A stretch of 64,000 bases of DNA from Deltaproteobacteria bacterium (GTDB taxonomy: Bacteria; Myxococcota; Myxococcia; Myxococcales; 40CM-4-68-19), in the NCBI GenBank assembly GCA_005879315.1, contig VBLC01000033.1, forward strand, positions 62,001 to 126,000, in the 5' to 3' direction. Both the position numbers and the translations under genes were made by a program. The notes under the pieces are model-generated. The model saw only the letters and a program-made list of their open reading frames with translations, had not been told where the DNA came from and made no database searches. This document shows, in pieces, positions 59,293 through 64,000 of the stretch (position 1 is the stretch's first letter; the number at the start of each line of letters is the position of its first letter).

Positions 59293-60928
59293 AGCCCTGC
59301 GCGCCGCTCGCGGCCGGAGCCTCGGGGTCGAGCATGACGTTGACGCAGGCGACGGTGCCCGAGGCGACGGCGCGCTCGAGGGCGGGCCGGATCTGCTCCG
59401 GCTCGGTGACGTGCTCGCCGTATCCGCCGAAAGCCTCGACGACCTTGTCGTAGCGGGTCGGCGCAAGCAGCGTGGCGGGGCTCTTCTCCGGACCATGGAA
59501 CTGGAGCTGCGGCAGCCTGATCTGTCCCCAGGAAGCGTCGTTCCCGACCACGCAGATCATCGGCAGCTTGAAGCGGAGCGCGGTTTCGTAGTCCATCCCG
59601 TTGAACCCGAAGGAGCCGTCGCCCTGGACGACGAAGACCGGCCGATCGGGATGGAGGAGCTTCGCCGCGATGGCGAACGGCGCGCCCACGCCGAGACAGC
59701 CCAGCGGACCGGGGTCGAGCCAGCGCCCCGGCCGTCGCAGCTGGATCACTTTCGCCGCGATGGCCACCCAGTTGCCGCCGTCGGCCACGAAAGTGCTGTC
59801 GCCGGCAACGCGCGCGACTTGGTCGAGCTCCTTCGCCAGCCGGAAGTGGTGGATGGGCACCTGGTCCGACTGCTCGTAGGTCGCCTGCTTCGCCGCCTTG
59901 GCCAGCTCGCGCTCGCGGAGCTGGCGCAGCCAGGCGGCCGTCTGCGCCTTTCCCGAGATCGCGGCGGTGATCTGCTGCAGGACGCTGCGCGAATCGCCCA
60001 GGATGCCGATGTCCACGGCGCGGTTGCGGCCGATCTCGGCGGGGTCGGAGTCAATTTGTACAATTTTCGCGCTCTCGCCGATCCCCGCGCCATATCCCAG
60101 GCGGAAGTCGAGCGGGGTGCCGGCGATGAGGACCAGGTCCGCCTCGGCCAGCGCCTCCTTGCGGGTCTGGCTGAAGAAGAGCGGATGATCGGCGGGCAGG
60201 CAGCCGCGGCCGGCGCCATTCAAGTACACGGGCGCGCCCAGGCGTTCGGCGAAGGCGGCCAGCTGGGTGGAGGCGTCGTCCCACCAGATCGAGCTGCCGG
60301 CGACGACCGCGGGTCGCTCGGCGCGCGAGAGCAGCGCCGCCGCGCGATCGACGTAGCCAGGATCGCCCGGCTGCCGCGCCTGCGTGCGATAGCCGGTGGG
60401 CAGTCGCACCTCCTCGTCGTCGACGCCGTTGGAGAGGACATCCCAGGGCACCTCGAGGAAGACCGGCCCCGGCCGGCCCGTCAGCATGGTCCGGAATGCC
60501 TTGGCCATGTACGTCGGCACGCGCTCCGGCGAGGGAATGCGGTCCGACCATTTGCTGATGCGGGTGAAGAGATCGACCTGCTCCATCTCCTGCAGCGATC
60601 CCTTGCCGGCGTTGAACGTGGGCGCCGCCCCGCCGAGGAGCAAGACGGGGCTGGCCGCGGCGAAGGCGTTGGCGACGCCGGTCAGGGCATCGGTCACGCC
60701 TGGGCCGGCGGTGACTGCCGCAACGCCGATGCCGCGGGTGAGCCGTGCGGTCGCGTCGGCGGCGTGCACCGCGGCCTGCTCGTGGCGGGTGTCGATGACG
60801 GCGATTCCTTCCTCGACGCAGGCGGCGTAGATGGGCGCGATGTGCAGACCCGAGAGGGTGAAGATGTGCCGGACGCCCTCGGCCTTGAGCATGCGCGCGA
60901 GGAGCTGCGCGCCGGTCGAAGTGCCCAT
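59282..60928 (-). CDS. ThDP-dependent acetolactate synthase-like enzyme
   Basis: A 548-residue three-domain ThDP enzyme. The activating Glu is in DTRHEQAAVHAADATARLTR, followed by VTAGPGVTDALTGVANAF; the ThDP site is VVQGDGSFGFNGMDYETALR ending at VVGNDASWG. It resembles acetolactate synthase large subunits and 2-hydroxyacyl-CoA lyases; no small regulatory subunit is adjacent, so it is unlikely to be the biosynthetic AHAS. ATG overlaps the lipoprotein stop. A 15-mer shared with lhr is in the AT-rich codons near 60052-60066. Confidence 0.88.
   Translation of the reverse strand: MGTSTGAQLLARMLKAEGVRHIFTLSGLHIAPIYAACVEEGIAVIDTRHEQAAVHAADATARLTRGIGVAAVTAGPGVTDALTGVANAFAAASPVLLLGGAAPTFNAGKGSLQEMEQVDLFTRISKWSDRIPSPERVPTYMAKAFRTMLTGRPGPVFLEVPWDVLSNGVDDEEVRLPTGYRTQARQPGDPGYVDRAAALLSRAERPAVVAGSSIWWDDASTQLAAFAERLGAPVYLNGAGRGCLPADHPLFFSQTRKEALAEADLVLIAGTPLDFRLGYGAGIGESAKIVQIDSDPAEIGRNRAVDIGILGDSRSVLQQITAAISGKAQTAAWLRQLRERELAKAAKQATYEQSDQVPIHHFRLAKELDQVARVAGDSTFVADGGNWVAIAAKVIQLRRPGRWLDPGPLGCLGVGAPFAIAAKLLHPDRPVFVVQGDGSFGFNGMDYETALRFKLPMICVVGNDASWGQIRLPQLQFHGPEKSPATLLAPTRYDKVVEAFGGYGEHVTEPEQIRPALERAVASGTVACVNVMLDPEAPAASGAQGYAI
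60052..60066. repeat. AT-rich 15-mer, copy 2, inside the ThDP enzyme gene
   Basis: CAATTTGTACAATTT, identical to 52657-52671. On the gene strand it sits in codons for Lys-Ile-Val-Gln-Ile. Both copies are islands of AT-rich codons within very GC-rich genes. Confidence 0.55.
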
Positions 60929-62199
60929 CACTGCACCACGAGCGTGCCGACGGCGATGGAGCTGGGAGGAGGGGAGCTTGCCGAGCTTCGGATGCTCAAG
61001 AAGGCGCCCGTGCCGTCGAAAACGGTGCCCTTGCCGCTCGTCGAATTGAGAGTGAGCGTGAAGTGAGCGACCTCGGGGGGCGAGACATCTCCGGCTGGGG
61101 CGGTACCGCTGCCCTTGAGGGCGGCGCCGAGCACCAGCGTGTTCTTCAGCGGACCGGTCCCGATCACGATCTTTGCAGCCGGGGTGGTACCGGTGACGAA
61201 CGTGCCGAACGTCGCCGGGCCTCCCAGCGAAACCCTGGCTGCGTCGAGCGGGATGTTGAGAGCGACTCCGCGCAGCGACACCGTCGTGGCCGGCACCAGA
61301 CGGAAGATCATCGAGGTGCAAGGATTCGGGCAGGCATCGGTCACCACGAGTTTGAGCGTCGCCGAGGCGGTCGGCGCCGTATAGACGAGCGTCGTCCCCT
61401 GAGAAGGGTTCACGGTGATGGACAGCGACTTGGTAACGCTAACGCTGCCGATCGCGCCGATCCCTGTCAGCGTATAGGTCACGTTTGCCGCGGGCTCGAC
61501 GGTGGCGGTCTTGAGCGGGCCGTAGTTGGTGGTCGTAGTGCCATCGGAGAGGGACCAGCTGGTGGCGGTCCCGTCCCAGCTGAGAATGACTTTGTCGCCT
61601 TGGTTGATGCTCGTCGATGAGGCATTGAACGTGATCTGCGGCAGTGCGACCACGCGCGCCACCGCCGTCGCCGTCACGCTCGCCGGCGTCGTCCCGGCAG
61701 CGCCCGTCACTGTCATCGTGTACCTCGTCGTCGCCGCGAGCTGCGGCACCACGAGCTGGGAGGCGGCAGTGACGTCGACCGTCGTCGTGCCGTCATAGAT
61801 CTTGATCGAAGTCGCTCGCGCCACGCTCCAGGTCAAGGTCACCTGCCCGTTGGGCGCAACCTGAGAGGGCAAGGCGCTGAAGTAACTGATCTGCGCCGCC
61901 GTGGGCATGGGCTTGACGTTGATCGACACGTCCTTCGAGTCGGCGCCCGCATCGTTCGCCGCGCGCAGGGTGTACACCGTGCTCACGTGCGGCGTGACCG
62001 CGACGGGGCTCGTCGTGACCGTGCCCGGCGTTGGATTGATGGTGAGGCTCGTCGCGCCGGTTACATCGAAGCTCAAGCTGACGGTGTCGCCGTCGGTGAT
62101 GTCGGTCTTGTCCGCGCTGAAGCTGTTGATCTTGGGCGGGCTCTTTTTCGAGCAGGCGGCGCCGGCGAGGAGCGCAGCGATGAAGAGGAACCTCTTCAC
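60928..62199 (-). CDS. Ig-repeat lipoprotein, possibly with a cohesin-like C-terminus
   Basis: A 423-residue exported protein. It has a lipoprotein-like signal (FIAALLAGAACSKK, Cys16) and three Ig-like repeats at about 23-97, 103-185 and 186-264, each with a GDxVxLSW-like core and YTLT strand. The last 155 residues form a different beta-rich domain with a Cys pair (TDACPNPCTSM); its place next to a dockerin-like partner makes a cohesin-like fold worth testing, but similarity is not established. ATG overlaps the upstream gene stop (ATGA). Confidence 0.75.
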   Translation of the reverse strand: MKRFLFIAALLAGAACSKKSPPKINSFSADKTDITDGDTVSLSFDVTGATSLTINPTPGTVTTSPVAVTPHVSTVYTLRAANDAGADSKDVSINVKPMPTAAQISYFSALPSQVAPNGQVTLTWSVARATSIKIYDGTTTVDVTAASQLVVPQLAATTRYTMTVTGAAGTTPASVTATAVARVVALPQITFNASSTSINQGDKVILSWDGTATSWSLSDGTTTTNYGPLKTATVEPAANVTYTLTGIGAIGSVSVTKSLSITVNPSQGTTLVYTAPTASATLKLVVTDACPNPCTSMIFRLVPATTVSLRGVALNIPLDAARVSLGGPATFGTFVTGTTPAAKIVIGTGPLKNTLVLGAALKGSGTAPAGDVSPPEVAHFTLTLNSTSGKGTVFDGTGAFLSIRSSASSPPPSSIAVGTLVVQ

Positions 62200-64000
62200 G
62201 GCTGGCCTCCGAACTTCGCCAGCAGCGCCGTAAGGTCATTGTCGTCGACGAGATTGACGGTGCCGACGAGGTCGGCTTGGTAACGATAGAACGAGCTCGC
62301 CTCGGTGCTCCCGAAAGCGTCGGCGAGATCGATCAGGTCCTGTCCATCGACCACGAGATCGAAGTTGGTGTCCCCGCGGCCTTTGACTCCGGCGGGATCG
62401 TTGGAGGCGTCCGTGGAGATCTCCCAGAAGCCGCGCCCATAGGTGCCGGCCACCAGCCGCTTGCTGGTCGCCGAGATGCAGACGTCGGTCACTTCGACGT
62501 CCGGCAGGCTACTGGCGCCGAAGCGCGTAAAGTTCTGGCCGCCGTCGCTCGACCTGTAGAGCCCGATTTCGGTGCCGACATAGAGCGTGAGCCGATCGTT
62601 GGGATCCACCTTGACGATGCTGACAGGAACGAAGGGCAGCCCGCCTTGTGTCGTCGCCTGTGCGCCCAGCGACGTCCAGCTCAGGCCGCCGTCGATCGTC
62701 TTGTAGAGATGGCCGAAGGACGAGGGCATCGGCGCGACGTTCGTGCCGAGATCGTCGGTGACGCTCATCGACTTGCTGGTGATGTAGTAGATCTGGCCGG
62801 TCTGATCGGTGGGGTCGAGCGCGATGCTGGAGAGCAGGTATGCACCGCAGCCTGGACAATTGGGAACGCTGGTCGGCACCTTCGCTTGCACCGAGACGTT
62901 CCAGTCGGTGCCGCCGTTCGTGGTGACGTAGGCGTACTTGTTGGAAACTGCTCCGTACAGCCCCGACTTGTTGGGATGTGCCGCGACGTTGCGCAACGAG
63001 ATCGTGCCGCCCGTCGGCGTCGTGAACCCAGAGGTGGTGGCCGGCCCTCCCTGCGCAGGGCTGGTCCAGTGCAGCGTGCCGGAGATGTTCGTCCAGGCGT
63101 TGCCGCCCGACGAGCTGTACATCGCCGCCGGCGTGGAGAAGGTCAGAAACGTGTCGGCCGAAGCCGCCTCGTCGCGCGCAATCCGGACGAGGAACGGCGG
63201 TCCGCTGAGCATGCCGGTGGTGAACTTCGTCCAGTTCTGGCCGCCGTCGTTGCTCTGCCAGATGCCCCCTGCCGTCGAGGCGAGGAAGATGTTCGGTACT
63301 CCGCCGCCCGTGACGCCGCCGCTGACCGCGAGGCCGATACCGTCCCCGCCGAGAAGCTGATCGAACGTAGACGGTCCGTGAATGCTGTTGACGTTGCGCA
63401 CGCGCGTGCCGTCGTCCTGCATGCCTCCCGCGATCCAGCCAAGCATCGTCGAAGGCCAGCTGTCCGGCGCGCAGGCGACGTTGTAGACGAGATGCGTGAC
63501 CAGCCCTTCGTTGTGCGCGCTGGTGAAGGTCACGCTTGCGGCGTCGCCGTTGCGGGCGTTGGCGGACGAGAAGATGCCGCCGTCGGAGCCGGCGTAGAAG
63601 GTGCCGTCGATGCCGACGGCGAAGGCGTGAAAGTCGGCGTGGATGTAAGGGCGACTGATGTTCACCGGAACCGGCAGCCAGTCGGACAAGACCGACCAGG
63701 TCACACCGCCGTCGAGGGAGCGGATCATCGCCAGATTGCCTCCGACGAAGACGGCGTCGGCATTCGTCGGATCGACGGTGATGGCCTGGTTGTACCAGGC
63801 CTGCTCGTGCAGCACGTTCAGATCCGTTTGATCGCCGTTGGGGTTCGTGGGCCGGCCCCCAGAGTTGACCCGGAGCGAGATGAAGGAGTTGCCGCCGTCG
63901 TCGCTGCGGTAGACGTCCCGGGTCGCGTTGCCTCCAAACGAGCCGCTGCCCTTGTTGCCGGCGAGGAGGTAGATGCGCGAGGTGTTCACGTCCGAAACGG
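62196..64000 (-). CDS. BNR/VPS10-type repeat protein with dockerin-like C-terminus, 5' truncated by window edge
   Basis: At least 600 residues; the reading frame is open through the right edge and the true start lies outside. Repeated blocks such as YRSDDGGNSF, WQSNDGGQNWTKF, YKTIDGGLSWTSLG and YRSSDGGQNFTRFG are BNR/sialidase-like Asp-box repeats that form a beta-propeller. The C-terminal 60 residues have GDTNFDLVVDGQDLIDLADA, with Ca-ligand spacing like a dockerin repeat, and a weaker second copy (ADLVGTVNLVDDNDL). An extracellular or cell-surface enzyme or binding protein is likely; it is first in the coupled set toward the lipoprotein gene. Confidence 0.8.
   Translation of the reverse strand, partial: VSDVNTSRIYLLAGNKGSGSFGGNATRDVYRSDDGGNSFISLRVNSGGRPTNPNGDQTDLNVLHEQAWYNQAITVDPTNADAVFVGGNLAMIRSLDGGVTWSVLSDWLPVPVNISRPYIHADFHAFAVGIDGTFYAGSDGGIFSSANARNGDAASVTFTSAHNEGLVTHLVYNVACAPDSWPSTMLGWIAGGMQDDGTRVRNVNSIHGPSTFDQLLGGDGIGLAVSGGVTGGGVPNIFLASTAGGIWQSNDGGQNWTKFTTGMLSGPPFLVRIARDEAASADTFLTFSTPAAMYSSSGGNAWTNISGTLHWTSPAQGGPATTSGFTTPTGGTISLRNVAAHPNKSGLYGAVSNKYAYVTTNGGTDWNVSVQAKVPTSVPNCPGCGAYLLSSIALDPTDQTGQIYYITSKSMSVTDDLGTNVAPMPSSFGHLYKTIDGGLSWTSLGAQATTQGGLPFVPVSIVKVDPNDRLTLYVGTEIGLYRSSDGGQNFTRFGASSLPDVEVTDVCISATSKRLVAGTYGRGFWEISTDASNDPAGVKGRGDTNFDLVVDGQDLIDLADAFGSTEASSFYRYQADLVGTVNLVDDNDLTALLAKFGGQP

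Follow-up and report, generated by a model that had tools for sequence, protein, structure and literature searches.

To our knowledge, cohesin-dockerin pairs outside cellulosomes are mostly known as scattered modules with no clear partner or role. Two described systems are among those closest to the locus studied here: in C. thermocellum, OlpC and OlpA with Doc435 and Doc918 (4dh2, 3ul4), one surface cohesin directly recruits one dockerin protein with no scaffoldin, and in C. perfringens the NagJ-NagH pair (2ozn) joins two secreted proteins. Passages of two reports on ANME archaea and their sulfate-reducing partners also describe non-cellulosomal cohesin and dockerin proteins with a presumed role at the cell surface (PMC9012536, PMC10553843).

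We analysed a window of 64,000 nucleotides (G000:C50:62001-126000) from a 4.43 Mb genome in 125 contigs. Two overlapping genes at its end likewise appear to match one cohesin with one dockerin protein (Table 1), and we propose, with a probability of roughly 80%, that they encode a two-part surface anchor in which a lipid-anchored cohesin stalk holds the secreted dockerin partner of the same operon. The lipoprotein would be exported and lipid-anchored in the outer membrane, carrying a single cohesin-fold domain on an Ig-like stalk; the BNR protein would be secreted via its own signal peptide and clip to that cohesin through its Ca-loaded C-terminal dockerin. The cell would then display a chosen secreted protein on a dedicated one-socket anchor from the same operon, the cargo being a GH74-like double propeller here and, in relatives, an M4 metalloprotease too.

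Table 1. Features of the gene pair, with positions in the window and the basis of each assignment.
Feature	Position	Strand	Basis
BNR/Asp-box protein, predicted double beta-propeller with C-terminal dockerin	62196..63998	(-)	ORF, Pfam PSII_BNR, family profile
Lipoprotein, 423 aa, Ig-like stalk and predicted C-terminal cohesin-fold domain	60928..62199	(-)	ORF, sequence
Predicted dockerin module, C-terminus of BNR protein	62199..62411	(-)	AF2 model, Foldseek, PF00404 matches in family
First Ca-binding loop DTNFDLVVDGQD, canonical D-x-N-x-D-x3-D-x2-D	62337..62372	(-)	family pattern
Second Ca-binding loop DLVGTVNLVDDND, 13 residues (D, +6 N, +12 D)	62235..62273	(-)	family pattern
Lipoprotein signal peptide and predicted acylated Cys16 (MKRFLFIAALLAGAA-C)	62152..62199	(-)	PROSITE-type lipobox
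Three Ig/PKD-like repeats (stalk) of lipoprotein	61405..62130	(-)	repeats read by eye
Predicted cohesin-fold domain, 158 aa, presumed dockerin receptor	60931..61404	(-)	AF2, Foldseek, VIA

The BNR gene crosses the window edge: its 3' 600 codons lie inside and its start, at about 65009, outside. The complete gene in the assembly encodes 937 aa (L005:4197-7010) with a signal-like N-terminus. Read from the sequence, the lipoprotein gene has a GTG start that overlaps the stop of the BNR gene in four nucleotides, GTGA (62196-62199); a scan for promoters and terminators gave no result. A sequence-only reading of this stretch had described a BNR protein ending in a dockerin-type Ca motif, a coupled next gene for a lipoprotein, and a last lipoprotein domain of unknown type. 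All three descriptions held, as the tail combines a canonical first loop with a 13-residue second one, the lipoprotein gene overlaps its neighbour and begins with a signal and a Cys16 lipobox, and its last 158 residues were assigned to no Pfam family.

The tail of the BNR protein is a dockerin, judging from its family alignment and its modelled fold. All Ca ligands of loop 1 are present in each of the 42 aligned tails (A4), and loop 2 is a 13-residue D-x5-N-x5-D in 25 of the 42, the window protein among them; it is degenerate in some relatives. The window protein has the Ca ligands of both loops, and its loop 2 follows the n, n+6, n+12 variant that crystal structures show for the R. flavefaciens group 1 dockerins RfDoc1a/1b, which have a single binding mode (PMC5429695). 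PF00404 (Dockerin_1) matched 27/42 tails at E values up to 1 (best 1.4e-5); the window protein had no match and the C19 paralogue scored above the cut-off. Dockerins were the top chains when the tail family profile was compared with the PDB. The AF2 model (pLDDT 79) places a helix after each of the two Ca loops, giving the two predicted F-hand repeats (Ca loop then helix) of a dockerin, and all 15 Foldseek matches of this model in the PDB were dockerin-bearing entries (best TM 0.71, rmsd 1.8 A, 4fl4_L). The dockerin of 2ozn was among both the profile and the fold matches.

That the two genes belong together beyond chance is confirmed by the genome itself, where profile searches found the cohesin and the dockerin exactly three times each, always side by side and never unpaired, and by the dozens of genomes that keep the pairing. 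The two further pairs of this genome are divergent, with 27-32% identity to the window's C-terminal domain and 36-39% to its tail. Across Myxococcota, the domain profile (A1) had matches in 31 of 195 genomes. For the tail profile (A2) this was 48 of 189, and other dockerin-like tails are among its weaker matches. A tail match lay within 8 kb of 46 of the 51 domain matches. These sets were on the same strand in 45 cases, with the dockerin gene first in 44, and on opposite strands in one, which was not counted as a pair. A direct DNA scan found partners for two more domains (L118, L122), so that 47/51 were paired on the same strand; two of the four domains without a partner sit at contig starts, while the remaining ones, G027:C94:20563 and G027:C213, lack an explanation. 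Chance proximity of domain and tail is estimated at about 1% or less, given genomes of 3.5-14 Mb that hold one to three tail loci each. Pattern scans of GTDB-wide contigs were uninformative, one being without a match and another matching only Pyxidicoccus caerfyrddinensis, a relative in culture that also has this pair. Each lipoprotein carries one cohesin (44 extracted domains). At one locus (L110:2239-6142), two tandem dockerin-tailed BNR genes lie upstream of a single cohesin lipoprotein gene, which amounts to two cargos for one socket.

Cohesin and dockerin distance matrices were then compared over 40 matched loci by a Mantel approach, with partners swapped within the 12 multi-copy genomes in 2000 trials. 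The correlation was r 0.849, and the swaps gave a mean r of 0.671 and a maximum of 0.816, so that none of the 2000 reached the observed value. The pairs travel as units; since linkage of adjacent genes alone could yield such co-divergence, the result is consistent with pair specificity and is no proof of it.

We then considered where the pair would act. The signal and Cys16 of the window lipoprotein satisfy the PROSITE-type lipobox of bacterial lipoproteins, as do 39 of 45 anchors of homologous pairs, and at least two of the six that fail the pattern (L080, L122) resemble lipoproteins by eye. The stalk repeats of the window lipoprotein gave sub-threshold PKD and I-set matches only in Pfam; the stalks of relatives reach about 2,000 aa and have Big_1, Filamin and Ig matches. 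M. xanthus lipoproteins with Lys at +2 are linked to the inner membrane and those with Ala at +7 to the extracellular matrix (PMC3222651). The window lipoprotein has Ser at +2 and Pro at +7, which is consistent with the outer membrane as the default location, and its exposure at the surface is presumed. Binding could instead occur inside the periplasm or at the inner leaflet, where the lipoprotein would help to assemble or secrete the BNR protein; a lipobox by itself does not distinguish the two faces of the outer membrane, and a few relatives (L092, L118) do carry the +2 Lys. We consider this unlikely, given that known cohesin-dockerin pairs act extracellularly and that mature anchors range from 246 to 2,068 residues because the stalk differs, a spread far beyond the need of a periplasmic chaperone.

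The surface-anchor reading assigns the socket to the C-terminal domain of the lipoprotein, for which a structure was modelled with AlphaFold from an alignment of 41 such domains (A3). The model was all beta (pLDDT 88.3, pTM 0.84). Cohesins dominate its top Foldseek matches in the PDB, with a modest best E of 4.4e-4, and two CBM chains are found among the top 25, at ranks 22 and 24. VIA rows 1-49 were all cohesins (Z 10.1-7.5, 116-142 residues aligned), with 1aoh_B (CipA cohesin, Z 10.1) as the best match and the C. perfringens modules 2vo8 and 2jh2 and the archaeal 2xdh also present; row 50 was another protein (Z 7.0). The predicted domain has the nine-stranded beta-sandwich of cohesins.

Profile methods gave little: the Pfam cohesin family PF00963 matched 0/41 domains, nothing in the whole genome even at E 10 and nothing at these loci in other genomes. 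Pfam and NCBIfam searches with single proteins assigned no domain to the lipoprotein C-terminus, and searching the PDB with profiles of the cohesin-family alignments returned chance matches only. The domain profile gave a weak end-to-end hhalign match to one Pfam-recognised cohesin from another Myxococcota lineage (G010; E 0.0017, probability 15%); a mixed collection of cohesins recognised by Pfam, which included secretin-like proteins, gave no link. As neither Pfam cohesins nor PDB entries were matched at the sequence level, homology to known cohesins rests on the predicted fold. Most likely the domain represents a new cohesin family, undetected by current databases, in a known type of interaction. 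The sequence-only reading had suggested that this domain may be cohesin-like and may be the partner of the dockerin. The first suggestion gains support from the fold, which is predicted to be that of a cohesin and not an unrelated one, though a profile search against PF00963 did not recover it; the second is supported by the one-to-one pairing and the co-divergence, with binding at the surface as the probable consequence.

The CBM chains among the Foldseek matches also raise the possibility that the domain is a CBM of related jelly-roll fold, as cohesins and CBM2/CBM3-like modules are related folds; the lipoprotein would then bind a glycan, and the dockerin would have another partner or none. 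This appears quite improbable, since the VIA cohesin matches are uninterrupted down to row 49, the domain is found almost only beside dockerin genes, and the genome would be left without any other recognised cohesin for its three dockerins. As a separate observation, PF00963 matches at two other loci (L140:1297-1686, L141:1468-1857) end proteins that by eye resemble type II secretion secretins (GspD-like), and this context means that some myxobacterial PF00963 'cohesin' matches are not dockerin receptors.

We also examined the cargo that the surface anchor would hold. PSII_BNR scored above the Pfam cut-off in the BNR protein, and the best PDB matches of the family profile were the GH74 xyloglucanases 2cn3/2cn2 (3e-20). 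The GH74 catalytic Asp, D70 in Xgh74A, was located as the residue that differs, D to A, when 2cn2 and 2cn3 are compared. Its position is occupied by S in 13 members, A in 7, T in 1 and P in 1, with a gap in 1, and thus by Asp in 0 of the 22 aligned members; GH74 catalysis is not expected from the family, and the BNR protein was rejected as a GH74 enzyme. The motifs HADxH, GLQDNGTR and GGDGIG are strongly conserved in the family alignment despite the absent Asp, and the GH74-like propeller possibly has a different active or binding site. It is very unlikely that the pair is a pared-down cellulosome acting on plant polysaccharide, with the BNR protein as its GH74 xyloglucanase of cellulosomal type, for while the profile matches point to GH74 and C. 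thermocellum Xgh74A bears a dockerin, the catalytic residue is replaced in every aligned member, the alternative cargo is a protease, and a count of one cohesin per lipoprotein, with no multi-cohesin scaffoldin, led us to reject a cellulosome.

This protease belongs to a second group of pairs, in which the dockerin is carried by an M4 thermolysin-like protease and the next gene encodes an Ig-repeat lipoprotein ending in a homologous domain. Such pairs were seen in many Myxococcaceae genomes (L125:1625-7942, L115, L116, L117, L142, L155-L157). The BNR-linked and M4-linked cohesin groups are homologous (hhalign E 2.4e-15). The profile of the M4-linked domain (A7) matched 36 of 195 genomes, 15 of them without a match to the BNR-linked profile, and at least one of the two groups is present in 46/195 Myxococcota genomes. 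Other arrangements were also observed. One genome (G110; L153 and L154, on two contigs) has four short lipoproteins with a cohesin-like domain, in two neighbouring sets per contig, and three M4 peptidase genes adjoin those lipoproteins, with tails that look like degenerate dockerins. In G010 (L136:2738-7362), a TIG-domain protein carries a Pfam-recognised cohesin, and two M1-peptidase proteins are encoded immediately downstream, with dockerin tails that score slightly below the Pfam cut-off.

Partners are ready-matched in operons across those 46 genomes, with cargo unrelated to cellulose. Current profiles miss the cohesin side, so the annotated cohesin count is too low wherever the family occurs. 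If the predicted binding is true, which would presumably depend on Ca, the pairs would offer many natural orthogonal clips for bioengineering and a testable way for predatory bacteria to keep secreted proteins at the surface. A more speculative extension, which we hold only tentatively, is that myxobacteria maintain an entire set of mutually orthogonal cohesin-dockerin pairs in which each socket serves one cargo. Their lipoprotein cohesins, invisible by sequence, would hold secreted proteases and propellers at the cell surface, or on vesicles that the cells shed, and so form a modular weapon or feeding rack used in predation. Our literature search found no paper on myxobacterial cohesin-dockerin pairs, and a prior mention is possible.

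Among the VIA matches of the domain model, 4dh2 and 3ul4 are what we take to be the C. thermocellum single-cohesin anchors, and the window pair would presumably work like them. OlpC and OlpA are anchored to a Gram-positive cell wall and their cohesins are recognised by Pfam, whereas the window pair combines a lipid anchor with an Ig stalk, is encoded by an overlapping operon and has a cohesin unrecognised by sequence. NagJ-NagH is similarly non-cellulosomal, but its cohesin is part of a glycoside hydrolase and that of the window pair is placed on a lipoprotein stalk. The GH74 xyloglucanases (Xgh74A, 2cn2/2cn3) share the Asp-box double propeller with the BNR family, as judged by profile match, but not the catalytic Asp. 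The R. flavefaciens group 1 dockerins share with the window dockerin a canonical first loop and an atypical n, n+6, n+12 second loop and, unlike the window pair, belong to a large cellulosome (PMC5429695). Finally, the systems of ANME archaea and their partners were found through Pfam-type domains and include some multi-cohesin proteins, and the same passages of those reports do not describe one-to-one operons with BNR or M4 cargos such as those found here (PMC9012536, PMC10553843).
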